Assembly (NCBI RefSeq): GCF_018309085.1
Contig: NZ_CP070502.1
Span: forward strand, 3,467,001-3,531,000
Length of the DNA stretch: 64,000 bases
Source: Sporosarcina sp. Marseille-Q4063
GTDB taxonomy: Bacteria; Bacillota; Bacilli; Bacillales_A; Planococcaceae
Direction: 5' to 3'
Below the pieces are notes generated by a model. That model was not told where the DNA came from, searched no databases, and was given only the letters and a program-made list of their open reading frames with translations. Of the stretch, positions 9,706 to 51,585 are shown piece after piece. A program made the translations under genes and the position numbers. Each line of letters begins with the position of its first letter. Within the stretch, counting starts at the first letter, position 1.

Positions 9706-10518
9706 CTAAGCAGCGAGTTCGTATTTTTTCCGATAGCCCATTGGGCTTTTCCGCTCTAATCTGGACTTGATTCTTAAATGATTATAATAATAGATATACT
9801 GTTCTAGTTCCTCTTTAAAGTGTTCAAGATCATCGAACTCCTGCAGGAACAGGAATTCATATTTAAGGATTCCGAAAAAGTTCTCGATGACGGCATTGTC
9901 GTAACAGTTTCCTTTTCGCGACATGCTCTGTGTGATGTTGTATTCCTTTAGTATCTGACAATATTGTGGCATTCGATAATGCCAGCCTTGATCTGAGTGG
10001 ATCAAGAGCTCATCGTCTTCTTTTACGTATTCAAGTGACTGCTTTAACATTGTTTCCACTAAATCAAACGTAGGCCTCGATTGAAGCGTATAGGTAATGA
10101 TTTCGCCGTTGAACAGGTCTAAAATAGGAGAGAGATATAATTTCTGTCCAAATAATTTAAATTCTGTAACGTCTGTAACCCATTTTTCGTTGGGTTTTTC
10201 CGCTTTGAAATTGCGGTTCAAGATATTTGGGACTGCTTTCCCGAATGCACCTTTATAGGATTTGTACTTCTTCATTCGGACAATACATTGAAGCCCCAGG
10301 TCTCGCATAATCCGAAGAACTTTCTTCTTGTTTATCGTGTGTCCTTTTTCGTTCAGGACGTCGGTGATGCGTCGATACCCAAGGCGCCCTTTGTGTCGGT
10401 GGTAGATGAAGTTGATTCTTCTCTTCCACTTCCGGTCGGGGTCTGGCTGCTTGAAACTATTTACGATGTTGTAGTAGGTGCTTCTTGCAATACCGGCTAT
10501 CTTTACCATCTTGTTCAC
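9706..10518 (-). CDS. IS3-family transposase OrfB (DDE integrase domain)
   Basis: This is the catalytic part of the transposase, 270 residues from the GTG at 10518, with an rve-type RNase H fold. The DDE residues are visible: Asp in WVTDVTEFKLFG, Asp in LIHSDQGWHY, and Glu in NAVIENFFG, 35 residues further. An N-terminal HTH_21-like region precedes them (IYHRHKGRLGYRRITDVL). It lies in the -1 frame relative to OrfA. The open -1 frame reads upstream through KVIFLLRHEFPVNKM, which is the usual start of the OrfB part in OrfAB fusions. The GTG is therefore probably not the real start, and the protein is likely made by -1 frameshifting. Confidence 0.92.
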   Translation of the reverse strand: MNKMVKIAGIARSTYYNIVNSFKQPDPDRKWKRRINFIYHRHKGRLGYRRITDVLNEKGHTINKKKVLRIMRDLGLQCIVRMKKYKSYKGAFGKAVPNILNRNFKAEKPNEKWVTDVTEFKLFGQKLYLSPILDLFNGEIITYTLQSRPTFDLVETMLKQSLEYVKEDDELLIHSDQGWHYRMPQYCQILKEYNITQSMSRKGNCYDNAVIENFFGILKYEFLFLQEFDDLEHFKEELEQYIYYYNHLRIKSRLERKSPMGYRKKYELAA

Positions 10519-10544
10519 TGGGAATTCATGCCTTAGTAGAAATA

Positions 10545-11063
10545 TTACTTTCGTTTTAATCTTTTTGGTGATCTTTCTTCCTGAACTAAGGCTTCCAGCT
10601 TTTTTAGATAGGCATTCTCCATACGAAGATATTCGAGTTCTTTTTCCATGGCTTCTCTTGATTGGTCGACAAGATCTTTGGAAGTGCTTTTCTTTTGATT
10701 GCGAGATTTCATTGTAGAAGGCCCCTTTTCTTTTATTTCAAGGGCACCTTCACCAGCTGTCTCCCACCTTTTCTTCCACCTACGAACCATACTAGGATCC
10801 GGGATATGGAAAATAGCCGATGCCTCTCGAATAGAGTAATCCGTTTCATTGATAAATTGAATTACCCTTAGTTTAAAGGCTCCTGGATAGTTTGTATAGG
10901 GAAAATCGAATGCATTATCACCATGATGTCGAAACAGTAGCACCCAGTAACGAATTACAGAGTTGTCGACTCCGACCTTTTCTGCCAGGTCTCGGTAACT
11001 AATATTTTCATGTTCATAACGTTTGGCTACTAGAAGTTTAAATTCTTTTGTATACTTGGACAT
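10545..11063 (-). CDS. IS3-family transposase OrfA (helix-turn-helix and leucine zipper)
   Basis: This is a 172-residue DNA-binding protein with two helix-turn-helix repeats (ISYRDLAEKVGVDNSVIRYW near 22-41, and a second around IREASAIFHIPDPSMVRRW). A C-terminal coiled coil (EKELEYLRMENAYLKKLEAL) is used for multimerisation. A GGAGG site lies upstream of the ATG. In the IS3 family OrfA binds the terminal repeats and regulates transposition, and the OrfAB fusion is the active transposase. The stop lies 26 nt before the annotated OrfB start, with A-rich slippage-prone sequence just before it (about 10550-10585). Confidence 0.9.
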   Translation of the reverse strand: MSKYTKEFKLLVAKRYEHENISYRDLAEKVGVDNSVIRYWVLLFRHHGDNAFDFPYTNYPGAFKLRVIQFINETDYSIREASAIFHIPDPSMVRRWKKRWETAGEGALEIKEKGPSTMKSRNQKKSTSKDLVDQSREAMEKELEYLRMENAYLKKLEALVQEERSPKRLKRK

Positions 11064-18228: not shown

Positions 18229-18882
18229 ATGATGAAAAATAAAGTTACAATCTATTTAGCTGCAGACTCCACGGTCCGTGACTATGATTCAACTCGATTC
18301 CCGCAAGCAGGATGGGGCCAATTCATCGCGGACTATTTAACCGACGAGGTAATTATCAAAAACCACGCAGTTGGTGGTCGAAGCTCCAAAACATTCATCA
18401 CAGAAGGGCGTTTAGCCAAAATAGAAGATGAAATAAGCGCGAACGATTATCTTTTCATCCAAATGGGACATAACGACTCAACAAAAGATCGACCAGAACG
18501 CTATACAGAACCATACGGAAGCTATAAATCCTATTTACAGCAGTATATCGACGTAGCCAGAGCTAAAAATGCAATACCGGTTTTAATTACGCCTGTAGGC
18601 AGACTTCACTATGTAAATAATGAATTCTTAACGGACTTTGGTGACTACTGCAATGCAATGAAGGAATTAGCCGAAGCAAATGATGTATTCCTCATTGATT
18701 TGATGAAAAGAAGCATTTCCTATTTAACTTCAATCGGCTACGTAAATGCAAATGGGCTATATATGATTTCAGTAAACGGAACCGACTGCACACACTTCAC
18801 CGTAAAAGGCGCAAACGAAATGGCGAGACTCGTTAGTGAAGGCATGAAAGAATCGGCAAGTCTAGCAATGTATGTGAAATGA
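18229..18882 (+). CDS. rhgT: Rhamnogalacturonan acetylesterase, SGNH hydrolase
   Basis: This is a 217-residue SGNH/GDSL hydrolase without a signal peptide. The four conserved blocks are visible: ADSTV with the nucleophile Ser (block I), AVGGRS with Gly (II), GHND with Asn (III) and DCTHFT with Asp and His (V). The closest recognisable class is RhgT/YesT-type rhamnogalacturonan acetylesterase, which removes acetyl groups from galacturonic acid in RG-I. An AAAGGAAGG site precedes ATGATG. Lack of a signal peptide implies action on imported acetylated oligosaccharides. It follows the pectate lyase directly and complements the other esterase at 2910. Confidence 0.85.
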   Translation: MMKNKVTIYLAADSTVRDYDSTRFPQAGWGQFIADYLTDEVIIKNHAVGGRSSKTFITEGRLAKIEDEISANDYLFIQMGHNDSTKDRPERYTEPYGSYKSYLQQYIDVARAKNAIPVLITPVGRLHYVNNEFLTDFGDYCNAMKELAEANDVFLIDLMKRSISYLTSIGYVNANGLYMISVNGTDCTHFTVKGANEMARLVSEGMKESASLAMYVK

Positions 18883-19154: not shown

Positions 19155-20528
19155 CTATCTACGTTTCTCTTTCAACATCTGTTTATCCCTAAACCGATCA
19201 CTCATCCTATAAATAATAACACTAACAATAATAAATCCAGCCAACTCGCCTAATGAAGCAGCAATCGAGCCGTTTATGCCGTTTAAATGCGGCGAAATTC
19301 GAACGAAGAATAGCAAACTTACAATCACGACAATAATATTCCCAACCTGTGCAAGAAGCATTTTATTTGTCTGTCTATTCAGCATTAAAAACCCATTCAG
19401 AAAATCGACCCAAGGAAATACCAGTGTTTTAATGATAAAAAACTTTAACACCGCAATCGTTGCCACTGACAACGCCTCATCAGCACCCATAATCACACGC
19501 ATATACACCATTCCTACCGGCGTATAGCATAAAATACATAATAATAGCGTCGGTAAAATGCTTACGACAATCAGAAATCTGACCACTTTTTGTTTATTAT
19601 GTTCGTAAAATTGCAATACGAGTTGATGTGTATACATGAAAAATCCTAGAATCATATTCGTAATACTAAAAGCCAACGCAAATGACGCAATTCCCATTTC
19701 AAGATCATGTGACTTCGCCAATAAAATATAAATGACGGGTATCAAAATTGTTTGAAGCAGAAAATAATACATCATCGGAAAATAAAACTTAGAAACATCC
19801 GCCTGCGTTAATTGGTAAGGATCCTCAACATTCAATTCTTTTCTTAAAAACAAATTCCCTTTGTACACACTCACCAAACATTCCACAAGCATCCCCACGA
19901 GAAAAATAATCGCGCCGCTAACACTCGTAATATAATCAAAATGAACAAACAGATAAGCCGCGATAAACATCGCGATAAGACGAGCGACGACCCCAATCGT
20001 TAACCAGTTGGTCGCTAACTGCGTAATAATAATTCCTTGATACAGCCCGCGAATTCCAGAAAAAATAATGACTAAAAGAACGACTTGAAATGTAATGGAA
20101 ATCGCTTTTACCATATCGGGCGTAGCACCGAAAATATTCGTATACATCCAACCGCCTATGGGGCTAAACGCCACTCCGGCACTCAATAGCATCGTCACGA
20201 CTAAAACATATATGAAGAATTTGCCGAGTAATTTAAATGACTTCCGATCAGTCACCAATGCCGATGAAGTTTGTCTGAAAACAATCATTGGTCGTTCAAT
20301 TATGCCGAATAAAGACAATGCCACCGCATAACACGCAATGATAAAAACAGCATTTTCGCCTCTACTCAAAGTACCGTTAATAATTACATGTGTCACTGAC
20401 GTCAAACTTGCCGAGACCCCTAGCGGAATAAAAAAAGCGCTTAGCTGCCTGTACGATATGCCCTTTATTGATTGCAAAAATAAAAACCCCGTTTCTATTT
20501 GATGAATGAATGATGAAATCGTTTTCAA
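19155..20528 (-). CDS. MATE-like polytopic membrane protein (MOP superfamily)
   Basis: This is a 457-residue protein with about 12 hydrophobic segments, for example FIYVLVVTMLLSAGVAFSPI and IIVVIVSLLFFVRISPHL. It resembles MATE-like or ANKH-like exporters of the MOP flippase superfamily rather than any sugar permease. The start is a TTG with an AGGATAATAGAG upstream sequence, a weak site; an internal start is possible. It diverges from uxaE across about 130 bp that holds a 20-bp palindrome, suggesting shared control with uronate catabolism. The substrate is unknown; export of sugar acid or a toxic intermediate is only a guess. Confidence 0.7.
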   Translation of the reverse strand: MKTISSFIHQIETGFLFLQSIKGISYRQLSAFFIPLGVSASLTSVTHVIINGTLSRGENAVFIIACYAVALSLFGIIERPMIVFRQTSSALVTDRKSFKLLGKFFIYVLVVTMLLSAGVAFSPIGGWMYTNIFGATPDMVKAISITFQVVLLVIIFSGIRGLYQGIIITQLATNWLTIGVVARLIAMFIAAYLFVHFDYITSVSGAIIFLVGMLVECLVSVYKGNLFLRKELNVEDPYQLTQADVSKFYFPMMYYFLLQTILIPVIYILLAKSHDLEMGIASFALAFSITNMILGFFMYTHQLVLQFYEHNKQKVVRFLIVVSILPTLLLCILCYTPVGMVYMRVIMGADEALSVATIAVLKFFIIKTLVFPWVDFLNGFLMLNRQTNKMLLAQVGNIIVVIVSLLFFVRISPHLNGINGSIAASLGELAGFIIVSVIIYRMSDRFRDKQMLKEKRR

Positions 20529-20555: not shown

Positions 20556-20606
20556 TTGCACTTTCATTATAAATCAGATACTATATAAATAACAACGTTG
20601 TTATTT
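20556..20606 (+). promoter_or_regulatory. Candidate uxaE promoter with 20-bp palindromic operator
   Basis: TTGCAC (20556-20561), 17 nt, TACTAT (20579-20584) form a plausible sigma-A promoter. Directly downstream, 20587-20606 is a perfect palindrome, AAATAACAAC/GTTGTTATTT, covering the likely start point. A repressor lifted by a uronate signal is the simplest reading. The regulator is not encoded next to it. Confidence 0.55.
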
Positions 20607-20655: not shown

Positions 20656-22149
20656 ATGGAGCACTTATTACCAACGATTGATTTATTAGCAGAAGGAAAA
20701 ATAGCTTCTGATTCAACTGGACTTAAAGTATACAAAGCATCATACACAAATAGCGATGATGTGCATTTATTGATGGTTAAAGATCAAGCGGAAAAATATA
20801 TTTTAGCAACTGGTACCGGCCAATTATACGATGACTTAGAAGGCACGAGCATTGGTGGAAAAGGGAAGGCATGTCCTTTAACTTATGAAAACCGTCTCGT
20901 TCTAAATCGTTATTTCGATTATACAGCACCCCGTGCATTTGGCACTGAAATTGCAACAATCGGTTTAGGCGACCGTTTGGGATTAGCTTCACCAGGACAT
21001 ATCGAAACGGTTCAAGGTAAAGCAATTAAACCTGTTCTTGCACAACAAAGTATTCGCGAGTTGACACTGACAAATCGCTCAATGACAGATATGTTAGACG
21101 CTGCTGCCTTCGCAGTTTTCCAAGAAGGCTATAAAGGCGGATACGGTGCTGACGGAGACCATATTAAAGAAGAATCCGATATCAAATATGCTTTGTCATT
21201 AGGCGTATCAATGATTACACTTGACTGTTCAGATCAAATTGACAAAACAATCGAAGAAGCGTCAGATGAAGTCATCGCGTCGGAATTTAATAACGTACCT
21301 GAAGACGTTAAACAACGCTACTTTGATAAGTATTTAAACAAAGCATTTGAAGTGAACGGCTTGTCACTGACATTTGATGAAGCCTCATTGATGAGAAACA
21401 TCTTGCTTTACGATGAAGCAATTTCGTACACAACACATGTCTACAATGAATACATTAGCAAAGAAGACCGCGCCATCGACTTTGAAATTTCGATTGATGA
21501 AACTGAAACGGTTACTGCACCGATTTCACACTTCTTCGTTGCAAATGAACTCATCGAAAGAGGCGTAACAGTAGTTAGTCTAGCGCCAAGGTTCTGTGGG
21601 GAATTCCAAAAAGGAATCGACTACATCGGGGACGTTGAACAATTTGAAGTTGAACTTCGTGAACACGCGCTGATTGCAGAACACTTTGGTTACAAACTAA
21701 GTATCCACTCGGGCAGTGATAAGTTCATGGTATTCCCGATTATCGCGGAATATACAAAAGGCGTTTTCCATGTGAAAACTGCTGGAACGAACTGGCTTGA
21801 AGCAATTCGAGTGATTGCGAATGTGAATCCAGGTCTATATAGACGCATGCATACATTCGCACTTGAAAACTTTGAAGAAGCGCTGAAGTATTACCATGTA
21901 ACGCCAGATTTGGACAGCGTCGCTTCACTTGATAGCGTTTCAGACGATCAACTTGCAGAATATATGAACAACGATGCAGCCCGTCAATTATTCCACGTCA
22001 CTTACGGTTTAATTTTAACGGCTAAAGACGAAAATGATGAATTTGTATTTAGAGACGAGTTCTTCAAAACACTCGACGAACACGAAGATGACTACCGCGC
22101 GGCACTTGTTAAACATATCGGTAGACATATTGAATTATTGGGATTGTAA
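20656..22149 (+). CDS. uxaE: Tagaturonate epimerase (tagaturonate to fructuronate)
   Basis: This is a 497-residue protein of the UxaE family, the metal-dependent C4 epimerase that converts D-tagaturonate to D-fructuronate, first characterised in Thermotoga. Family-like segments are GYGADGDHIKEESDI, PRFCGEFQKGIDYIGD and LSIHSGSDKFMVFPII, rich in Asp, His and Glu suitable for metal binding. No signal peptide is present. An AAAGGA site precedes the ATG and a strong terminator follows the stop, so the gene is probably monocistronic. It links galacturonate to the fructuronate reductase encoded at 24878. Uronate isomerase (UxaC), needed upstream, is not in this window. Confidence 0.87.
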   Translation: MEHLLPTIDLLAEGKIASDSTGLKVYKASYTNSDDVHLLMVKDQAEKYILATGTGQLYDDLEGTSIGGKGKACPLTYENRLVLNRYFDYTAPRAFGTEIATIGLGDRLGLASPGHIETVQGKAIKPVLAQQSIRELTLTNRSMTDMLDAAAFAVFQEGYKGGYGADGDHIKEESDIKYALSLGVSMITLDCSDQIDKTIEEASDEVIASEFNNVPEDVKQRYFDKYLNKAFEVNGLSLTFDEASLMRNILLYDEAISYTTHVYNEYISKEDRAIDFEISIDETETVTAPISHFFVANELIERGVTVVSLAPRFCGEFQKGIDYIGDVEQFEVELREHALIAEHFGYKLSIHSGSDKFMVFPIIAEYTKGVFHVKTAGTNWLEAIRVIANVNPGLYRRMHTFALENFEEALKYYHVTPDLDSVASLDSVSDDQLAEYMNNDAARQLFHVTYGLILTAKDENDEFVFRDEFFKTLDEHEDDYRAALVKHIGRHIELLGL

Positions 22150-22165
22150 GATAGCTCGAGAATAG

Positions 22166-22198
22166 AAAGATGAGAGAACAATTTCTCATCTTTTTTTT
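22166..22198 (+). terminator. Terminator after uxaE
   Basis: AAAGATGAGA pairs perfectly with TCTCATCTTT over an 8-nt loop and runs into eight Ts. It separates uxaE from larE. Confidence 0.9.
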
Positions 22199-22214
22199 CA
22201 TACAAATAAAAAAC

Positions 22215-22275
22215 TTGAAATGTAAAACGCTTACATCTATAATGAAGGTGTCAGTTAGTTTGTCGGTCAAATTAA
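22215..22275 (+). promoter_or_regulatory. larE promoter with overlapping palindromes
   Basis: TTGAAA (22215-22220), 17 nt, TATAAT (22238-22243) is a near-consensus sigma-A promoter. TGTAA-AACGC-TTACA (22221-22235) fills the spacer. It resembles cre but its half-sites are one base too far apart. TTTG-TCGGT-CAAA (about 22259-22271) lies just downstream of the start. The leader to larE would be about 170 nt. Confidence 0.65.
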
Positions 22276-22426
22276 AGCGAAGTAAAATAGATGAAGTAAG
22301 CTCAGTTGACAATTGTTTGATGTAAACCTAAGCTGAAGATATAGAGTATTCAAACTAAGTTGAACCGTTGTCTTTAACGTATTATGGTGCATATACAATA
22401 ATAACAAGAAAAGTGGGGCGAAAGAA

Positions 22427-23254
22427 ATGAACGAAACAACTATTCAAAAGAATCTTGAATTAGGAGAAATCCTTTCTGGCATGGGACGCGTCATGGTAGC
22501 ATTTTCTGGTGGAGTCGACAGCGCTTTAGTTTTAAAGAGAGCGCAAGAAGAACTAGGAGACCAAGTGTTGGCGGTTGTTGTTGCATCAGAACTATTCCGT
22601 AAGCAAGAGTTTGAAGATGCGGTTAAACTTGCAGAAGATATGGGTGTCGCTGTTTATAAAACAGAAATCAAAGAATTAGACAATCCGGATATCGTTGCTA
22701 ACACTCCGGACAGTTGGTATTACAGTAAGAAAATGCTTTATACGCATTTGAATGAGCTAGCGGAACGCATGGATTATCCTTATGTTTTAGATGGCATGAT
22801 CATGGACGATTTAGATGATTTCCGTCCGGGCATGCGCGCAAGAAAAGAAGCTGGCGCACGCAGCGTATTGCAAGAAGCAAAGATTTATAAGAAGGAAGTT
22901 CGCGAACTTGCAAATGAATTAGGACTCCCAGTATGGGATAAGCCTGCATCATGCAGTCTCGCATCAAGAATTCCATACGGCATCGAAATTGATAAACAAA
23001 AAATCGAACAAGTTGATCAAGCTGAAATCTTTTTAGCGAAAATCGGTTTCCCACAAGTCCGTGTTCGTCACCATGATAACGTAGCGCGAATTGAGGTAAC
23101 TCCTGAAGAAATTACTAAATTAGTCGAGCAACGCGATAGCATCCATTTAAAGCTTAAATCACTTGGCTTTACTTATGTTTCACTAGATTTACGCGGATAC
23201 CGCACAGGTAGCATGAATGAAGAACTGCCTGAGAGCGTACTGAAAAGCGTCTAA
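22427..23254 (+). CDS. larE: LarE, ATP-dependent sacrificial sulfur transferase for the nickel-pincer cofactor
   Basis: This is a 275-residue PP-loop enzyme that adenylates the cofactor precursor and inserts sulfur to form its thiocarboxylates. The ATP loop is AFSGGVDSALVLKRA (25-39). Cys176 in DKPASCSLASRIPYG is the only cysteine in the protein. It falls at the same residue number as the sacrificial Cys176 of Lactobacillus plantarum LarE, so this is the single-cysteine, single-turnover type rather than the iron-sulfur type. It has its own promoter and terminator, one gene ahead of the operon carrying the cofactor-dependent isomerase, larB and larC. Confidence 0.93.
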   Translation: MNETTIQKNLELGEILSGMGRVMVAFSGGVDSALVLKRAQEELGDQVLAVVVASELFRKQEFEDAVKLAEDMGVAVYKTEIKELDNPDIVANTPDSWYYSKKMLYTHLNELAERMDYPYVLDGMIMDDLDDFRPGMRARKEAGARSVLQEAKIYKKEVRELANELGLPVWDKPASCSLASRIPYGIEIDKQKIEQVDQAEIFLAKIGFPQVRVRHHDNVARIEVTPEEITKLVEQRDSIHLKLKSLGFTYVSLDLRGYRTGSMNEELPESVLKSV

Positions 23255-23261
23255 CGATTAT

Positions 23262-23300
23262 AAGCACTTCACTATATATTATGGTGAAGTGCTTTTCATT
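23262..23300 (+). terminator. Terminator after larE
   Basis: AAGCACTTCAC pairs perfectly with GTGAAGTGCTT over an 11-nt loop, followed by a T-rich tract. The rest of the 320-base gap to 23575 holds the promoter region of the next operon. Confidence 0.88.
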
Positions 23301-23398
23301 TCGAATAAAAATTAGCGGCATTCAGAACGGGAAAGATGATTATCAATATTTTTTGGTTGCTCGAATAGCCTGTTAAGGCGTATATGTGCAAATGATTG

Positions 23399-23460
23399 TT
23401 GACGAAGAATTGGTTAAATGATATTCTATAATTAGGTGTTTGTTTAGTCGGCAAACAAAT
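23399..23460 (+). promoter_or_regulatory. Promoter/operator region of the epimerase-larBC operon
   Basis: TATAAT (23427-23432) is followed by TTTGTTT-AGTCGGC-AAACAAA, a 7-bp inverted repeat (about 23440-23460). There is no good -35 box 17 nt before TATAAT. TTGACG (23399-23404) with TATTCT (23422-23427) at 17 nt is an alternative. The layout TATAAT, AGGTGT, GTCGG, AAATTAA resembles that of the larE promoter and suggests shared regulation. Confidence 0.5.
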
Positions 23461-23575
23461 TAAGTGGGTTATAAATACGGCTTTCAGTTATTTTAAAACA
23501 GACTTTGTAAGGGCTTTCACTTTATTATACGATAATTAGTTTTTTTACTATAGAGAATTAGGAGTGGATCATGTT

Positions 23576-24844
23576 ATGAGTATCATTGACGAACTTTTAA
23601 AAGACATTCCAGTACCGAAAATGGCGAAGGTTAAGCAGACATTCGACAACGAACAGTTGGATGATGTTGATCAAGCATTGCAAGATGCATTGAAGCAAGA
23701 GGAAATTCGAAAAACGGTAAAGCCTGGAATGGAAATAGCTGTCGCTGTAGGAAGCCGTGGTGTTGACAAAATTGTCGAAGTGACTGCACGCACGATAAAG
23801 TTTTTACAAGATCTAGGTGCTAAACCGTTTATCGTTCCAAGCATGGGAAGTCACGGAGGCGCATCAGCAGAAGGACAAATCGCTGTTTTAGCCCATTTGG
23901 GTGTTACAGAAGAATCGGCTAACTGTGAAATTCGCTCGTCTATGGAAGTTGTAGAGATTGGAAAATTAGAAAATGGATTGCCTGTTTATGTTGATAAATA
24001 TGCATCTGAAGCAGATGGAATTGTTGTTATCAACCGGGTAAAACCACATACTGCATTCAGAGGAACTGTTGAAAGCGGCATTATGAAGATGATCGCGATC
24101 GGTTTGGGTAAGCAAAAAGGTGCAGAAGCATGTCATCAGCTCGGATTTGAACATATGGGCAAACATATTATTCTAATGTCGAACATGATTCTCGAAAAAT
24201 TGCCTGTACTTTTCGGTGTTGCAACGGTTGAAAATGCTTTTGACAAGGTTGCGCATGTTGAAGTATTGCTTCCGGATGTCATTGAATCGAGGGAAACTGA
24301 ACTTCAAAAAATGGCGAAAAAGCTATTGCCGAAGATTGATTTCAAAAATATCGACGTTCTGGTCATTGATGAAATCGGTAAAAACATCAGTGGGGACGGC
24401 ATGGATCCGAATATTACGGGACGTTATCCAACGCCTTATGCGCACGGCGGACCTGAAGTGAATAAAATGGTTGTTCTAGACTTGACGCCTGAAACTGAAG
24501 GAAACGCGAATGGTGTCGGAACTGCAGATTTCACGACACAACGTCTAATCGATAAAACAGATTGGGATGCGACGTATGCGAATGGTCTCACATCAACAGT
24601 CGTCGCACCAACGAAAGCTGCAACGACGTTGAAGAATGACCGCCTAGCTTTAAAAGCAGCGATTAAGACTTGTAATATTTTCGATTTCACTAAGGTTAAA
24701 ATGGTACGCATCAAAAACACATTGGAACTTAGCGAGATTGAAGTGTCGGAAGCTTTATTGAACGAAGTTGAAAGTAATGAAAACCTAACGAAGGTATCAG
24801 AGCTATATGAATTGACGTTTGATGATGAAGGTAACTTAGCGTAA
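23576..24844 (+). CDS. LarA-family nickel-pincer-dependent hydroxyacid epimerase (probable D-mannonate/D-gluconate 2-epimerase)
   Basis: This is a 422-residue LarA/DUF2088 protein. I start at ATG 23576, 11 nt after AGGAG; the GTG at 23564 overlaps that site. Likely active-site residues are His93 (SHGG), His158 (VKPHTAF), Lys171 (GIMKM, cofactor tether) and His187 (ACHQLGF, nickel ligand). The Lys-to-His spacing of 16 equals that of Lys184/His200 in L. plantarum LarA, but the sequences around them differ from true lactate racemases. LarA homologues are known to include a D-gluconate 2-epimerase. The genes around it (uxaE, fructuronate-reductase-like SDR, gluconokinase, larE/B/C) make mannonate/gluconate the best substrate guess. 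Family membership is firm; substrate is inferred. Confidence 0.85.
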   Translation: MSIIDELLKDIPVPKMAKVKQTFDNEQLDDVDQALQDALKQEEIRKTVKPGMEIAVAVGSRGVDKIVEVTARTIKFLQDLGAKPFIVPSMGSHGGASAEGQIAVLAHLGVTEESANCEIRSSMEVVEIGKLENGLPVYVDKYASEADGIVVINRVKPHTAFRGTVESGIMKMIAIGLGKQKGAEACHQLGFEHMGKHIILMSNMILEKLPVLFGVATVENAFDKVAHVEVLLPDVIESRETELQKMAKKLLPKIDFKNIDVLVIDEIGKNISGDGMDPNITGRYPTPYAHGGPEVNKMVVLDLTPETEGNANGVGTADFTTQRLIDKTDWDATYANGLTSTVVAPTKAATTLKNDRLALKAAIKTCNIFDFTKVKMVRIKNTLELSEIEVSEALLNEVESNENLTKVSELYELTFDDEGNLA

Positions 24845-24877
24845 ACGCTGAACTATACAGATAGAGGAGATTTTACA

Positions 24878-25648
24878 ATGGGAAAATTATTTGATTTGAC
24901 TGGGAAAACAGCTGTTGCAATTGGTGGAAACAGCGTATTGGGGTCATCCATGGTTAAAGGATTGGCGGACCAAGGCGCGCAAATTGCTGTAGTTGGCCGT
25001 AATTTAGAAACAGCGGAGAAAGTTGTACAAGAAATTATCGGAAAAGGTGGAAAAGCGAAAGCGTTCCGCGCAGATGTTGTTTCAAAGGAATCACTTGAAA
25101 ACGTAGCAACTGAAATTGAAGCGTGGTCAGGCGGTTGGGATATTTTATTGAATGCGCCGGGAACGAATAGTCCGACACCGTTCTTTGAAATTGAAGAAGA
25201 TGAGTGGGATCATATTTTAGATGTTAACTTAAAAGGCATCATGTTAACAACGCAAGTATTTGCGAAGAAAATGATTGATCAAGAAAGAAAAGGCAGCATC
25301 ATTAATATTTCATCTGTATCTTCAACGACACCGCTTTCTAGAGTATTTACGTACTCTGTTTCAAAAGCAGGCGTTAATAATATGACACAATTTTTGGCAC
25401 GCGAATTTGCGCCTTACGGCATTCGTGTCAATGCAATTATTCCTGGATTCTTCCCAGCGGAGCAAAACCGTAAAATCTTGAGTGAAGAAAGAATCGAATC
25501 CATCATGGGCCATACACCGATGAATCGTTTCGGTGATCCTGAAGAGTTAGTCGGTACGGCAGTTTGGTTAGCATCCGACAAAGCATCTAGCTTTGTTACG
25601 GGAACGCTGATTCGCGTTGACGGTGGATTTGGAAGTATGACAATTTAA
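24878..25648 (+). CDS. SDR-family oxidoreductase, probable fructuronate reductase (mannonate dehydrogenase)
   Basis: This is a 256-residue classical short-chain dehydrogenase. The cofactor loop is slightly unusual (GGNSVLG, residues 16-22). The catalytic residues are visible: Asn/Ser in NISSVSS, Tyr159 and Lys163 in FTYSVSKAGV. It resembles the SDR-type mannonate oxidoreductases (UxuB/YjmF) that reduce D-fructuronate to D-mannonate with NAD(P)H. It lies 33 nt after the LarA-like epimerase gene with an AGAGGAGAT site, so the two are cotranscribed. Together with uxaE it would supply mannonate to that epimerase. KDG or gluconate dehydrogenase activities are the main alternatives. Confidence 0.82.
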   Translation: MGKLFDLTGKTAVAIGGNSVLGSSMVKGLADQGAQIAVVGRNLETAEKVVQEIIGKGGKAKAFRADVVSKESLENVATEIEAWSGGWDILLNAPGTNSPTPFFEIEEDEWDHILDVNLKGIMLTTQVFAKKMIDQERKGSIINISSVSSTTPLSRVFTYSVSKAGVNNMTQFLAREFAPYGIRVNAIIPGFFPAEQNRKILSEERIESIMGHTPMNRFGDPEELVGTAVWLASDKASSFVTGTLIRVDGGFGSMTI

Positions 25649-25658
25649 GTTTGAACCT

Positions 25659-25694
25659 AAGCTTTGGAGTAAAATCCAAAGCTTCTTCTTTATT
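25659..25694 (+). terminator. Attenuator hairpin between the SDR and gluconokinase genes
   Basis: AAGCTTTGG pairs with CCAAAGCTT over an 8-nt loop, followed by CTTCTTTATT. The weak T tract suggests partial termination inside the operon. Confidence 0.65.
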
Positions 25695-25732
25695 AATATT
25701 GAATTTTTATATGTGGAAGGGAAGAAATCACA

Positions 25733-27205
25733 ATGAAAAAAGATTTAGTGCTCGCATTAGATATTGGAACGACAAGTGCAAAAGCGGTACTTTTTGAATT
25801 AGATGGGAAGTTAGTTGCGTCGGCTGAAAGAATGGTCACTTCTAATTATCCCCAAACAGATTGGGTCGAACAAGATCCTATTGAAATTGAAAGGGCTTCT
25901 GTCGGTGCTATTAATGATTGCATGAAGAAGTCGAATCGTAAAAAAGAAGATGTGTTAACGTTAGGGATTTCTTGTGCCATGCATTCATTGATTTGTGTGA
26001 ACGAAAACTATGAACCGCTTTCTCAAGCTATAATTTGGGCAGACGGCCGAAGTAACGAGCAAGCCAAAAACCTTAGAGAAACCGTTGGCGATAGCATTTA
26101 TGCCAATACGGGACTTCCAAATCATCCAATGTCACCGCTAAGTAAATTGCTTTGGATGAAAGAAACGAATTTCGAACCGTATAAACAAGCCGGCTATTTT
26201 ATTTCCGTAAAAGAATACGTTCTTCAAAAGTGGTTTGGTCGCAGCATCATTGATTATTCAATGGCATCCGCTACAGGGTTATTTAATATGAAGACATTCG
26301 ATTGGGATGAAGAAGCACTCGAACTCGCGGGTGTTAACAGAAACCAACTTTCGCGGATTGTGCCGCCGACAGAAATGCTTACTAGAATTAAAGAGGATAT
26401 TGCTGAAGAGATGGGTATTTCAAGTGAGATGCCATTTGTCATCGGTTCTGCAGATGGTCAATTGGCGAATCTCGGAAGCGGGGCCATTAATCCGGGCGAA
26501 GTGGCGATATCCGCTGGGACGAGCGGAGCAATTCGACAAATGATTAAAGGTTTTGAAGTCAGTGATAGCCAAGAAACATTTTGTTATGCTTTCACTGATG
26601 AATTGTCAATCCTCGGGGGACCCACAAATAACGGTGGAATCGCCTTGCAGTGGTTGAAAGAACTTATCGATTATCAGGGCAGCTTTGACGAATTAACTGC
26701 AGAAGCAGAGAAAGTTGCTCCAGGTGCAGAAGGCGTGTTGTTTTTACCGTATATTAACGGGGAAAGAGCTCCGATATGGAAGCAAGAAGCTAAAGGTAAC
26801 TTCTTTGGACTTTCCATTACACATAAAAAAGAACACTTAGTTCGTGCTGTTTTGGAAGGGATTACGTATAATCTATACCATATCGGGAAAGCGCTTGAAG
26901 ATAAGGTCGGCGAACCCGAGAAAATATTCGTCAACGGCGGTTTAGCTCAATCTCCACTATGGGTGCAAATGCTTGCTGATGTATTTGGGAAAGATGTCTA
27001 TGTATCCGAAAGTCACCATAGTGCGGCTTGGGGAGCGGCATGGACAGCGTTGGTCGCGATGGGTAAGGTGGATTCATTTGAAGAAATCAAACAGAATATC
27101 CCGATTGAAGCGATCATCAAACCAAATCTAGATAATCATAAAATCTATGCAAAAGCATTTGAAAAGTATAGTGGAATTGCGAGCGACTTATCGAAGTACT
27201 TTTAA
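25733..27205 (+). CDS. gntK: Gluconokinase (FGGY family)
   Basis: This is a 490-residue two-domain FGGY carbohydrate kinase. The N-terminal phosphate loop is LDIGTTSAKAVLFE (9-22), the substrate-domain signature region includes WADGRSNEQA, and the C-terminal ATP-site motif is VNGGLAQSPLW. Overall it matches Bacillus GntK, which phosphorylates D-gluconate to 6-phosphogluconate. It sits between the reductase and larB genes. In this context it would take gluconate made by the nickel-dependent epimerase into the pentose phosphate pathway. No gluconate permease (GntP) or GntR gene is adjacent, which argues that gluconate is made internally. Xylulokinase-like specificity is the alternative. Confidence 0.87.
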   Translation: MKKDLVLALDIGTTSAKAVLFELDGKLVASAERMVTSNYPQTDWVEQDPIEIERASVGAINDCMKKSNRKKEDVLTLGISCAMHSLICVNENYEPLSQAIIWADGRSNEQAKNLRETVGDSIYANTGLPNHPMSPLSKLLWMKETNFEPYKQAGYFISVKEYVLQKWFGRSIIDYSMASATGLFNMKTFDWDEEALELAGVNRNQLSRIVPPTEMLTRIKEDIAEEMGISSEMPFVIGSADGQLANLGSGAINPGEVAISAGTSGAIRQMIKGFEVSDSQETFCYAFTDELSILGGPTNNGGIALQWLKELIDYQGSFDELTAEAEKVAPGAEGVLFLPYINGERAPIWKQEAKGNFFGLSITHKKEHLVRAVLEGITYNLYHIGKALEDKVGEPEKIFVNGGLAQSPLWVQMLADVFGKDVYVSESHHSAAWGAAWTALVAMGKVDSFEEIKQNIPIEAIIKPNLDNHKIYAKAFEKYSGIASDLSKYF

Positions 27206-27226
27206 CGTAATAGAGGGTGAAAATAG

Positions 27227-27976
27227 ATGGAAGACATTTTGAAGCAAGTTCAACAAGGCACGTTAACCGTTGAAGAAGCCAAAATAAAGTTGGCTACATA
27301 TGAAAACCTGGGATTTGCGAAAGTAGATCATCATCGTAAAAAACGTCAAGGATTTCCTGAAACGATTTACGGGGAAGGGAAATCTGCTGAGCAAATTTCA
27401 GCCATCATTTCCGCAATCCGCGCGAATAATGATTATGTATTAGTGACGCGGATTACTGAAGAAAAATCGGTTGAAGTGCAAAAAAATCATCCCGATTTAC
27501 TTTATAATAATCAAGCTCAAATTTTGCATTCTCTACGACGGAGCGAAGATATATTCGGCACGGGATATATTGCGGTTGTCTGCGCGGGCACATCAGATTT
27601 ACGAGTTGCTGAAGAAGCTGCTGTTACTGCAGAAGTATTCGGCTGTGAAGTTCGTCGTTTTTATGATGTTGGGGTAGCTGGAATTCATCGTCTTTTTGAT
27701 AATATCGATGAAATTCAAAATGCGACCGTTTCAATCGTAGTTGCGGGAATGGACGGTGCTCTGCCAAGTGTTGTCGGCGGACTTGTTTCACACCCTGTCA
27801 TTGCGGTACCGACAAGTGTCGGTTACGGAGCAAGTTATAATGGTTTAGCCGCATTGTTGACGATGCTGAATTCTTGTGCATCCGGCATCAGTGTTGTAAA
27901 TATCGATAATGGATTTGGCGGCGCTTATAATGCGGCATTGATCCATAAATTGGCGCAGCGAAAAGAGGAGGGGTGA
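27227..27976 (+). CDS. larB: LarB, pyridinium-3,5-biscarboxylic acid mononucleotide synthase
   Basis: This is a 249-residue protein that carboxylates and hydrolyses nicotinic acid adenine dinucleotide in the first step of nickel-pincer cofactor synthesis. The C-terminal half has the PurE-like fold, with the signature CAGTSDLRVAEEAA (119-132). Cys217 in LNSCASG corresponds in position and context to the catalytic cysteine of known LarB. It lies 21 nt after gntK and 4 nt before larC, with larC's ribosome binding site inside its end. Co-transcription with a LarA-like isomerase is the normal arrangement. Confidence 0.92.
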   Translation: MEDILKQVQQGTLTVEEAKIKLATYENLGFAKVDHHRKKRQGFPETIYGEGKSAEQISAIISAIRANNDYVLVTRITEEKSVEVQKNHPDLLYNNQAQILHSLRRSEDIFGTGYIAVVCAGTSDLRVAEEAAVTAEVFGCEVRRFYDVGVAGIHRLFDNIDEIQNATVSIVVAGMDGALPSVVGGLVSHPVIAVPTSVGYGASYNGLAALLTMLNSCASGISVVNIDNGFGGAYNAALIHKLAQRKEEG

Positions 27977-27980
27977 CAGC

Positions 27981-28451
27981 ATGAGTGCTAAACACCCTCC
28001 AAATCATGCTCATATAGATCAAGAAATGTTTAAAATGGAAGTCAATCTGGATGATATTTCAGGGGAAATCCTAGGCTATTTAATGGATTTATTGATCGAG
28101 TCTGGTGCTAATGATGTTTATTACACTTCGATTTATATGAAGAAAAACAGACCGGGTATTTTGCTTCAATTATTATGCTCCGGGGAAAATCTCGATAAGA
28201 TGAAGCGAATCTTATTCACGGAAACGACAACTCTTGGGGTACGTTATTATCCTTTAACGGTGCATCGTACGGAGAGAAGGTTTCGAAAAGTGTCAACGAA
28301 GTGGGGAGAAGTGACCGTTAAAGAAGGCATTTATGAAGGAAAAGTCATTCAGTGCTCGCCGGAATATGAAGAATGTAAGAAAATCGCCGAACATCATAAG
28401 GTTCCGCTAAAAAAGGTATATGAACAGGTGTGGAAGCAGTTGATCGAGTAA
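27981..28451 (+). CDS. larC: Short LarC (LarC2-like nickel insertion protein, no LarC1 part)
   Basis: This 156-residue protein corresponds only to the C-terminal part of LarC, which binds CTP and installs nickel in the pincer cofactor. The recognisable segment is EVNLDDISGEILGYLMDLL followed by IYMKKNRPGILLQLLC. Full LarC is about 400 residues. In L. plantarum the LarC1 and LarC2 parts are joined by a frameshift. Here the preceding DNA is occupied by larB in full and no LarC1 sequence exists in the window. AGGAGGGG precedes the ATG, so it is a free-standing gene, not a broken one. LarC1 may be dispensable or encoded elsewhere. Confidence 0.87.
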   Translation: MSAKHPPNHAHIDQEMFKMEVNLDDISGEILGYLMDLLIESGANDVYYTSIYMKKNRPGILLQLLCSGENLDKMKRILFTETTTLGVRYYPLTVHRTERRFRKVSTKWGEVTVKEGIYEGKVIQCSPEYEECKKIAEHHKVPLKKVYEQVWKQLIE

Positions 28452-28502
28452 TTCAGGTTATAGAATTACTCGAAAGGCATCAAGGGGGAAGGGGAACACT
28501 TG

Positions 28503-29423
28503 ATGGAACTATTTATCATTCTTAAAGACATTATATTGCCGATATTCGTGATCATGGCATTAGGTTTTGTGATGCAGACGAAATTCGATTTGAACATTCA
28601 AACGTTAGCCAGATTGAGTATTTACTTTCTCGTTCCGGGTTTCATTTTCGTAAAGTTATATAGCACGAATATCTCACTCAACTTGTTTGGAAAGATATTG
28701 CTCTTTTTCATTCTATATGTTGTAATTCTTTTTGTGATTTCTCATTTTATCGGGAATGCTCTCGGTTTGGAAAAAGGGGAGAAAACTACTTTTTCCAACA
28801 GTACCATGTTTTTCAATTCGGGTAATTACGGGGTTCCTGTAAATGATTTAGTGTTCAAAAGTGATCCGTTGGCGATGTCGATTCAAGTTATTATGCTGAC
28901 ATTGCAAAACATCTTTCTTTTTTCGTATGGTATTTTTTCTTTGCAATCTATTAAAGTAGGGAAATTGAAGGCTGCACTTGGCTATTTTCGAATGCCTGTT
29001 TTGTATGCGATGTTGGCAGGGGTATTATTAAATGTTTACAACGTTCCGATCCCGTCGTTCATTTGGGTTCCGGCAAATTATATCGCAGATGCGATGATTG
29101 CCATGGCATTATTTACATTAGGCGCGCAGGTTGCCAAGATTAAGTTTTCGACTGGTTTGACGACGGTTTATTATAGTTTGGCTCTTAGACTAGCGATTGG
29201 CCCGTTAATTGCGTTATCGATTATATACATATTTAAAGTGGACGGAATCGTGGCTCAAGCATTATTAATCGGGTCGGCAATGCCTACGTCAGTCAATAGT
29301 GCGGTTATTGCTGAGGAATACAATAATCATCCAGATTTGGCGGCACAGATCGTGTTGTTCTCGACGTTGTTTAGTGCGATTACGGTTACGCTTGTTATTT
29401 ATTTGGCTAGGTTTTTATTTTGA
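28503..29423 (+). CDS. AEC-family (auxin-efflux-carrier-like) permease
   Basis: This is a 306-residue membrane protein with about ten hydrophobic segments and the AEC fold, including NSTMFFNSGNYGVPV and the C-terminal IGSAMPTSVNSAVIAEEY motif typical of the family. ATG at 28503 is used; GGGGAAGGGG lies upstream. Bacterial AEC proteins move small organic anions such as malate. It is the last gene of the epimerase operon, so a sugar acid (gluconate, mannonate or a uronate) or an end product is a possible cargo. This is context inference only. Confidence 0.8.
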   Translation: MELFIILKDIILPIFVIMALGFVMQTKFDLNIQTLARLSIYFLVPGFIFVKLYSTNISLNLFGKILLFFILYVVILFVISHFIGNALGLEKGEKTTFSNSTMFFNSGNYGVPVNDLVFKSDPLAMSIQVIMLTLQNIFLFSYGIFSLQSIKVGKLKAALGYFRMPVLYAMLAGVLLNVYNVPIPSFIWVPANYIADAMIAMALFTLGAQVAKIKFSTGLTTVYYSLALRLAIGPLIALSIIYIFKVDGIVAQALLIGSAMPTSVNSAVIAEEYNNHPDLAAQIVLFSTLFSAITVTLVIYLARFLF

Positions 29424-50737: not shown

Positions 50738-51585
50738 ATGAAAAGTTTTTCACATATTGAAAGAAAGAACATATTGACGGGACTTGAAAACGAACATTAT
50801 GACGTTATTATTGTTGGTGGTGGAATAACAGGCACGGAATTGCACTCGATTGCACGACGAGGGGCTTGAAGACTTTATTGGTAGAGATGCAGGACTTTGC
50901 AGCGGGGACTTCAAGTAGGTCAACAAAACTTGTTCACGGAGGACTCCGCTATTTAAAACAATTTGAAGTGAAGATGGTTTCGGATGTCGGTAAAGAACGT
51001 GCGATTGTGTATAACAATGCACCCCATATTACACATCCCCAGTGGATGCTAGGACTTACAACAATTGCAGGCGGGAAATTAACGGGCTATCGAAAAATGG
51101 CGGAAACAGTGACTGATTTAATAAGTGCAGAATTGGGTGGGGAAGGCGGCCAATCAATCACAAAGAATATGAAGTTATCCGGCGGCGAGTTTTTTCATCC
51201 AAGTGATTATCCGACATTTATCGAAACAAAAGCTAGGAAACTTTCAACGTTGGGGATGTCAAGGGAAGATGGCGCCTCGATAGCGGCAATTTATGGTACG
51301 AATACAGATGCGATTATTGATTTGGAAAAGGAACTGTTAATTGAATTAGATTTGCCGCTGCCAATAAAATTGACATTGCATTATGCAATTCAATTCGAGA
51401 TGGCAATGACGCCAACGGACTTTTTCGCGAGAAGAACGGGTGCTATCTTTTTTGATATACCATGGGTGCAGACTTGGAAACAACCTGTGATTGATTATAT
51501 GGAACGTTTATTTAACTGGTCTTCAGAAAGAAAAGAACATATGACAGAAGAACTAGATCTGCGCATACAGGAAGCAACTAGCTAA
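50738..51585 (+). pseudogene. glpD: Glycerol-3-phosphate dehydrogenase gene with frameshift and internal deletion
   Basis: The gene starts normally (ATG 50738, AAAAGGGG site) with the FAD motif [12 protein letters not shown]. One base is then missing near 50834; the frame resumes as [38 protein letters not shown] and [15 protein letters not shown]. At about 51050 it jumps to [17 protein letters not shown]. About 250 residues of the normal GlpD middle part are absent. The C-terminal helical domain follows to a normal stop and terminator. It cannot make active enzyme. Confidence 0.9.

Follow-up and report, generated by a model that had tools for sequence, protein, structure and literature searches.

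How could galacturonate enter central metabolism in a bacterium that carries pectin genes and whose genome holds no match to mannonate dehydratase? The question is raised by a 64,000-nucleotide stretch of Sporosarcina sp. Marseille-Q4063 (the window; genome positions 3467001-3531000 of a 3.98 Mb single-contig genome), in which a homologue of LarA lies among genes predicted to convert hexuronates and to make the nickel-pincer nucleotide. We conclude that this locus is probably the galacturonate branch of a hexuronate pathway independent of mannonate dehydratase (UxuA), with the epimerase acting before the kinase, and that mannonate very likely reaches 6-phosphogluconate whichever of these two enzymes acts first.

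Gene content and the proposed route

The locus occupies positions 20656-28451 of the plus strand. It starts with uxaE, for tagaturonate-fructuronate epimerase (20656..22149; PF16257, 657 bits, full length over profile positions 1-475 of 475), and larE, for the sulfur transferase of nickel-pincer nucleotide synthesis (22427..23254; TIGR00268, 360 bits, cut-off 150). These are followed by the LarA homologue, a proposed D-mannonate/D-gluconate 2-epimerase (23564..24844; NF052515, 557 bits, cut-off 400), and by an SDR-family protein, a proposed fructuronate reductase (D-mannonate oxidoreductase; 24878..25648), whose 289 bits exceed the PRK08277 subfamily cut-off of 281 by a narrow margin, as do the 282-293 bits of the SDRs of three relatives. 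An FGGY kinase, proposed to act on gluconate and possibly on mannonate (25733..27205; TIGR01314, 486 bits, below the cut-off of 648.55), precedes the cofactor synthesis gene larB (27227..27976; NF033503, 303 bits, cut-off 175) and larC2, for the C-terminal half of the nickel insertase (27981..28451; NF052512, 149 bits; PF01969 profile positions 240-375).

Comparison with solved LarA structures showed that the LarA homologue has the two-domain LarA fold over most of its chain. This is its only tie to those structures, as sequence searches of PDB chains, started from the single protein or from a profile built on 28 homologues, matched no LarA, GntE2 included. The curated models place it in group 22, outside the GntE groups 19 and 20, and no GntE model was among the five families listed. 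This class lowers the case that the protein is a GntE, not the case that it works like one.

In the proposed route, UxaC would convert galacturonate to tagaturonate, UxaE would convert tagaturonate to fructuronate, and the SDR would reduce fructuronate to D-mannonate. The group 22 LarA homologue, using the nickel-pincer nucleotide supplied by LarB, LarC1, LarC2, and LarE, would invert C2 of D-mannonate to give D-gluconate, which the FGGY kinase would convert to 6-phosphogluconate, and Gnd would release ribulose-5-phosphate and CO2. Lyase products would probably go separately through KduI, KduD, KdgK, and KdgA. We infer each of these substrates, and the order of epimerase before kinase, from the genes.

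The remaining genes of the route lie outside the window. uxaC (647 bits, NF002794) is ≈44 kb upstream of uxaE, in a group with gnd, a ROK protein gene, and larC1 that stands 41-46 kb upstream. gnd (757 bits, TIGR00873) directly follows uxaC, ≈43 kb from uxaE, and is close to larC1; therefore, 6-phosphogluconate is the likely end point of the route. Between this group and uxaE lie genes for transporters, a Glyco_hydro_88 protein, kdgA, kdgK, kduI, kduD, and a LacI-type regulator, and likewise the pectin genes of the window. In a genome of the same genus (G268), uxaC-gnd-ROK-larC1-larE-larA-SDR-FGGY-larB-larC2-permease is contiguous, and uxaE is absent both from this 20 kb stretch and from the whole genome. 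Therefore, the window looks like the same cluster, split by a pectin island and uxaE.

An earlier note, made from the letters of the window, had seen uxaE, the SDR, the LarA homologue, the kinase, larE, and larB together beside pectin genes, and this arrangement stands: a 2258-amino acid protein from 11356, which by eye resembles pectate lyase, and a GDSL esterase at 18229 lie upstream of uxaE. The bypass of UxuA that the note proposed is also supported, in that the genome has no match to UxuA (PF03786) or to altronate dehydratase (PF04295), each of which was matched in 5 of 14 control genomes, in searches that did not extend to the enolase-type dehydratase ManD. Entry into the pentose phosphate pathway, which it likewise proposed, agrees with the position of gnd. 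Its suggestion of a D-gluconate 2-epimerase of the LarA superfamily holds for the superfamily, by fold, and not for the GntE groups.

A scan of named genomes gave 396 relatives of the LarA homologue, and we counted genes within 10 kb of it in the best 80 of these 396; the counts are lower bounds, since 18 of these loci span less than 21 kb. An SDR is nearby in 77 loci, LarE in 63, an FGGY kinase in 62, LarB in 58, ROK in 52, LarC2 in 51, and LarC1 in 47; at least one of larB, larC1, and larE is present in 67. uxaC is found in 42 loci and gnd in 37 (either in 56, both in 23), and uxuA in none. The SDR in 77 loci, and the SDR and FGGY kinase together in 62, imply that this linkage is not due to chance. 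By contrast, uxaE, found in 8 of the 80 loci, is an exception in the cluster, and clusters of the common kind, which lack it, most likely act in glucuronate use. A tree of 120 LarA homologues gathers every one of the 88 SDR-linked sequences into a single clade of 96 members (support 0.92). The other 24 sequences include no SDR-linked one, but for 20 of them the locus is only ≈4 kb long.

In a sample of 398 Bacilli genomes, group 22 scored over its cut-off in 57 (63 at E ≤ 0.001), UxuA was matched in 130, and UxaE in 6. Nine genomes of this sample have a mapped LarA homologue with SDR and FGGY kinase; UxuA is missing from six (G000, G176, G259, G268, G344, and G371) and present in three (G172, G273, and G335). 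Among named genomes, the LarA homologue is closest to proteins of Sporosarcina, with 94% identity to S. jiandibaonis. A scan of viral contigs gave no relative; a plasmid search gave, among the matches listed (15 of 114), two Bacillales records of ≈72% identity, and 112 of the 114 were below 60%; Lactobacillus may be among the rest. A record titled Arthrobacter beigongshangensis (NZ_JADHDX010000005.1) holds a Sporosarcina-like cluster (85% identical LarA homologue), which suggests that the record is mislabelled or mixed.

Order of the steps and competing explanations

Several observations weigh against the route as proposed. The cluster kinase reaches 486 bits and five further cluster kinases 443-491 bits against the gluconokinase cut-off of 648, and its label as gluconokinase in the earlier note is not sustained at that threshold. 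Extracts of Lactobacillus suebicus did not epimerise free mannonate (PMC6978723). The genome contains kdgA and kdgK, which the same note had placed outside the route and offered for a search, and ManD, which lies outside the PF03786 search, was not looked for in the genome. In the LarA homologue, the position of LarA D72 is V62 by register, and K273, invariant in 28 homologues, is uncertain as the equivalent of LarA K298. In the openly licensed literature consulted, group 22 has no measured activity: it is not named in the main text of PMC7583248, in that of PMC11770544 as far as seen, or in the passages seen of PMC12611868, and listings of such papers gave no treatment of its function in hexuronate use. 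Finally, among 50 genomes that have the clade's LarA homologue (the first 50 of the best 80), 26 matched PF03786 at E ≤ 0.001, and 24 of these over its full length. Relatives without a UxuA match include Neobacillus niacini F8 (L074) and Aquibacillus saliphilus (L075). Strict complementarity between the LarA cluster and UxuA, which we had expected, was not found, and the 24 genomes imply that one route does not preclude the other.

The best-surviving alternative, which we hold possible but doubtful, reverses the last two steps. The cluster FGGY kinase would be a mannonate kinase, and the group 22 LarA homologue would be a nickel-pincer 6-phosphomannonate/6-phosphogluconate 2-epimerase that acts on a phosphorylated sugar acid. 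According to PMC6978723, extracts of L. suebicus phosphorylate mannonate and then epimerise it, on the way from fructuronate reduction to 6-phosphogluconate, and neither activity has a gene assigned to it there; kinase-first action would supply genes for both. Tentatively, then, the cluster may hold L. suebicus-type genes for a mannonate kinase and a 6-phosphomannonate 2-epimerase, spread through Bacillales. By sequence, the cluster kinase is a subfamily of its own beside gluconokinase, ≈40-43% identical to canonical GntK, and its score below the gluconokinase cut-off may mean that mannonate is phosphorylated first. Several genomes hold both kinds of kinase (e.g., G404, G429, G444, and G448).

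Against this order, canonical GntK takes the place of the cluster kinase in one of the 80 loci (L113, Bacillus sp. MUM 116), where a canonical gluconokinase (818 bits) stands after larA-SDR-larE-larB-larC1-larC2 and a NicO-type transporter gene, and the cluster kinase is absent; the contig starts just before larA, so that a uxaC there would fall outside it. Moreover, among 15 loci with an SDR and no cluster kinase, a cluster-type kinase is encoded elsewhere in seven of the genomes, and the other eight have canonical GntK as their only GntK-type FGGY kinase. UxuA was searched for in five of these eight and was absent from three (G422, G438, and G443), all of which have LarC. According to a report cited in PMC6978723, GntK of E. 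coli does not use mannonate. One clade member (L048) adjoins a galactonate dehydratase, identified by family search, which acts on the free acid; a galactonate dehydratase is also near a second member (L049), by resemblance. Clade-specific residues decided nothing about phosphate, and the lack of any phosphate-binding signature specific to the clade among them argues weakly for a free acid. We therefore retain the epimerase-first order as the probable one.

These last two loci (L048:8341-11689 and L049:8204-11566) are Paenibacillus-type clusters and suggest another aldonate substrate. In both, the clade member also adjoins a 6-phosphogluconate dehydrogenase of the short type (TIGR00872; 408 bits in L048, 393 in L049), and an FGGY kinase close by falls just short of the gluconokinase cut-off, at 621 and 629 bits, respectively. 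In Paenibacillus solani (L147:12926-13804), the cluster kinase is found only as a 292-amino acid open reading frame, with a canonical gluconokinase elsewhere in the genome.

It is improbable that ManD, an enolase-type dehydratase for which a ManD-like family exists in NCBIfam (NF043051), feeds KdgK and KdgA while the LarA homologue and kinase handle gluconate or another aldonate. The presence of kdgA and kdgK would suit such a route; however, both stand with kduI and kduD, which accounts for them and fits the use of lyase-derived unsaturated uronates, so that KdgA and KdgK would at most be bypassed for saturated galacturonate. That the LarA homologue travels with a mannonate-type SDR in 77 of the 80 loci, and with uxaC or gnd in 56, also speaks against this explanation.

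The catalytic residues of the LarA homologue bear on the last alternative. By register and spacing, on which these equivalences rest given that profile alignment to the genome's own LarA is weak (probability 49), R65, K175, and H191 match the cofactor residues R75, K184, and H200 of LarA, and H97 and H162 match the catalytic histidines H108 and H174; all five are invariant in 28 homologues, and the loop after the second histidine is three residues longer than in GntE1 and GntE2. That the group 22 protein does not invert C2, or has another sugar acid as its substrate and is only co-regulated with hexuronate genes, is the least probable explanation: groups without equivalents of H174 or K298 may not invert (PMC7583248), and many genomes carry several copies of group 22, which is also found in other contexts, but the invariant histidines and cofactor positions, a Lys-to-His spacing of 16 as in the genome's own LarA, and the cofactor genes close by in most loci argue against it.

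Cofactor genes, regulation, and neighboring genes

The cofactor genes, which had been read as complete within the locus, are present there as larB, larE, and the larC2 half; larC1 is a separate gene, and PF01969 is split over two places. larC1 lies outside the window at genome position 3446151-3446903 (L003:19142-19909), ≈48 kb from larC2. In 45 relatives the locus includes both halves, which are adjacent in 38 of them and apart in 7 (L075, L078, L079, L083, L085, L087, and L116). LarC here would have to work as two chains; in L. plantarum, LarC is made by frameshift. The genome encodes a second LarA (NF033504 lactate racemase, 548 bits, cut-off 460; L151:6185-10633, genome ≈3.155-3.160 Mb), which has its own larE-like gene (at 3.157 Mb, 72% to larE of the window) and adjoins genes that by eye are glycerate-kinase-like and permease-like. 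The split larC is the only larC found in the genome, and the cofactor genes of the window may therefore serve this second LarA as well. In two relatives, larC2 is followed by a gene for a NicO-type nickel transporter (L113:5694-6347, PF03824, 27.8 bits, cut-off 27.7; L119:15257-15952, by resemblance), as one would expect near a nickel enzyme.

A perfect palindrome of 16 bases (20589..20604), a candidate LacI-type operator, lies 52 bases before uxaE and has no second perfect copy in the genome. The same 16 bases precede uxaE in five other loci compared (L044, L080, L081, L095, and L120), and a LacI-like gene adjoins uxaE in four of these (L080, L081, L095, and L120). A copy with two mismatches precedes the genome's own lacI-type gene (L004:18896); at ≤2 mismatches, the genome count equals that of the reversed control (5 and 5), and only the conserved perfect copy was used. 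The scan that gave terminator-like hairpins at 23262-23294 and 25659-25684 found no more hairpins than shuffled sequence would give (9 against 9.8 expected).

Directly after larC2, an AEC-type permease (28500..29423, plus strand; PF03547, 99 bits) is the candidate transporter of the cluster, and one is found at the same place in two relatives (L044 and L046). A 457-amino acid membrane-like protein without Pfam or NCBIfam match (19155-20528, minus strand), which by eye also adjoins uxaE in L044, is perhaps a transporter. By eye, two transposase-like reading frames of an insertion sequence (9706-11063, minus strand) separate sugar-uptake genes from the large pectate-lyase-like gene, and a 239-amino acid reading frame at 50866-51585 (plus strand) resembles glycerol-3-phosphate dehydrogenase with parts missing.

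Relation to known hexuronate pathways

If the proposed route operates, it gives a likely physiological role to LarA group 22 (the present protein has 396 relatives in one species-genome collection) and describes a path from hexuronates to the pentose phosphate pathway that recurs in Bacillales, in some cases where UxuA is lacking. As far as ribulose-5-phosphate, such a route would be redox-neutral, a property of importance for the conversion of pectin waste, as argued for L. suebicus (PMC6978723).

The conversion of mannonate to gluconate was proposed by Rodionova 2012, as cited in PMC7583248, PMC6978723, and PMC3750489, and was shown in vitro for GntE1 and GntE2 (PMC7583248) and for LarAH10 and LarAH15 (PMC11770544). 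GntE1 of C. glutamicum is in group 19 and GntE2 of Thermotoga maritima in group 20, whereas the curated model places the present protein in group 22. The pectin regulon of T. maritima, under UxaR, includes gnd-uxaR-uxaE-uxaD-gntE-gntK, and the genome has kdgA-kdgK-uxuB-uxuA in addition (PMC3750489). Both genomes thus combine, near pectin genes, uxaE, fructuronate reduction, a LarA-type epimerase, an FGGY gluconokinase-like kinase, and gnd. In T. maritima, these form one regulon and UxuA is present as well; here, the PF03786 search found no UxuA, an SDR takes the part of the reductase, the locus includes larB, larC2, and larE, and the uxaC-gnd pair is ≈41-46 kb away. The isomerase/phosphoketolase hybrid route of L. 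suebicus likewise connects fructuronate reduction with 6-phosphogluconate and involves no mannonate dehydratase; in that organism phosphorylation of mannonate comes first, whereas the present genes may act in either order. Compared with the canonical isomerase pathway (UxaC, UxaB/UxaA or UxuB/UxuA, KdgK, and KdgA), the UxaC entry and a fructuronate reductase are shared, and matches to UxuA and altronate dehydratase are lacking. The earlier interpretation is thus upheld in part, with the corrections given above. The gene set recurs in Bacillales, and the outline of the route is already known from T. maritima. What is new is a different LarA group, cofactor genes within the cluster, a genome without a UxuA match, a distinct kinase subfamily, and the spread through Bacillales.
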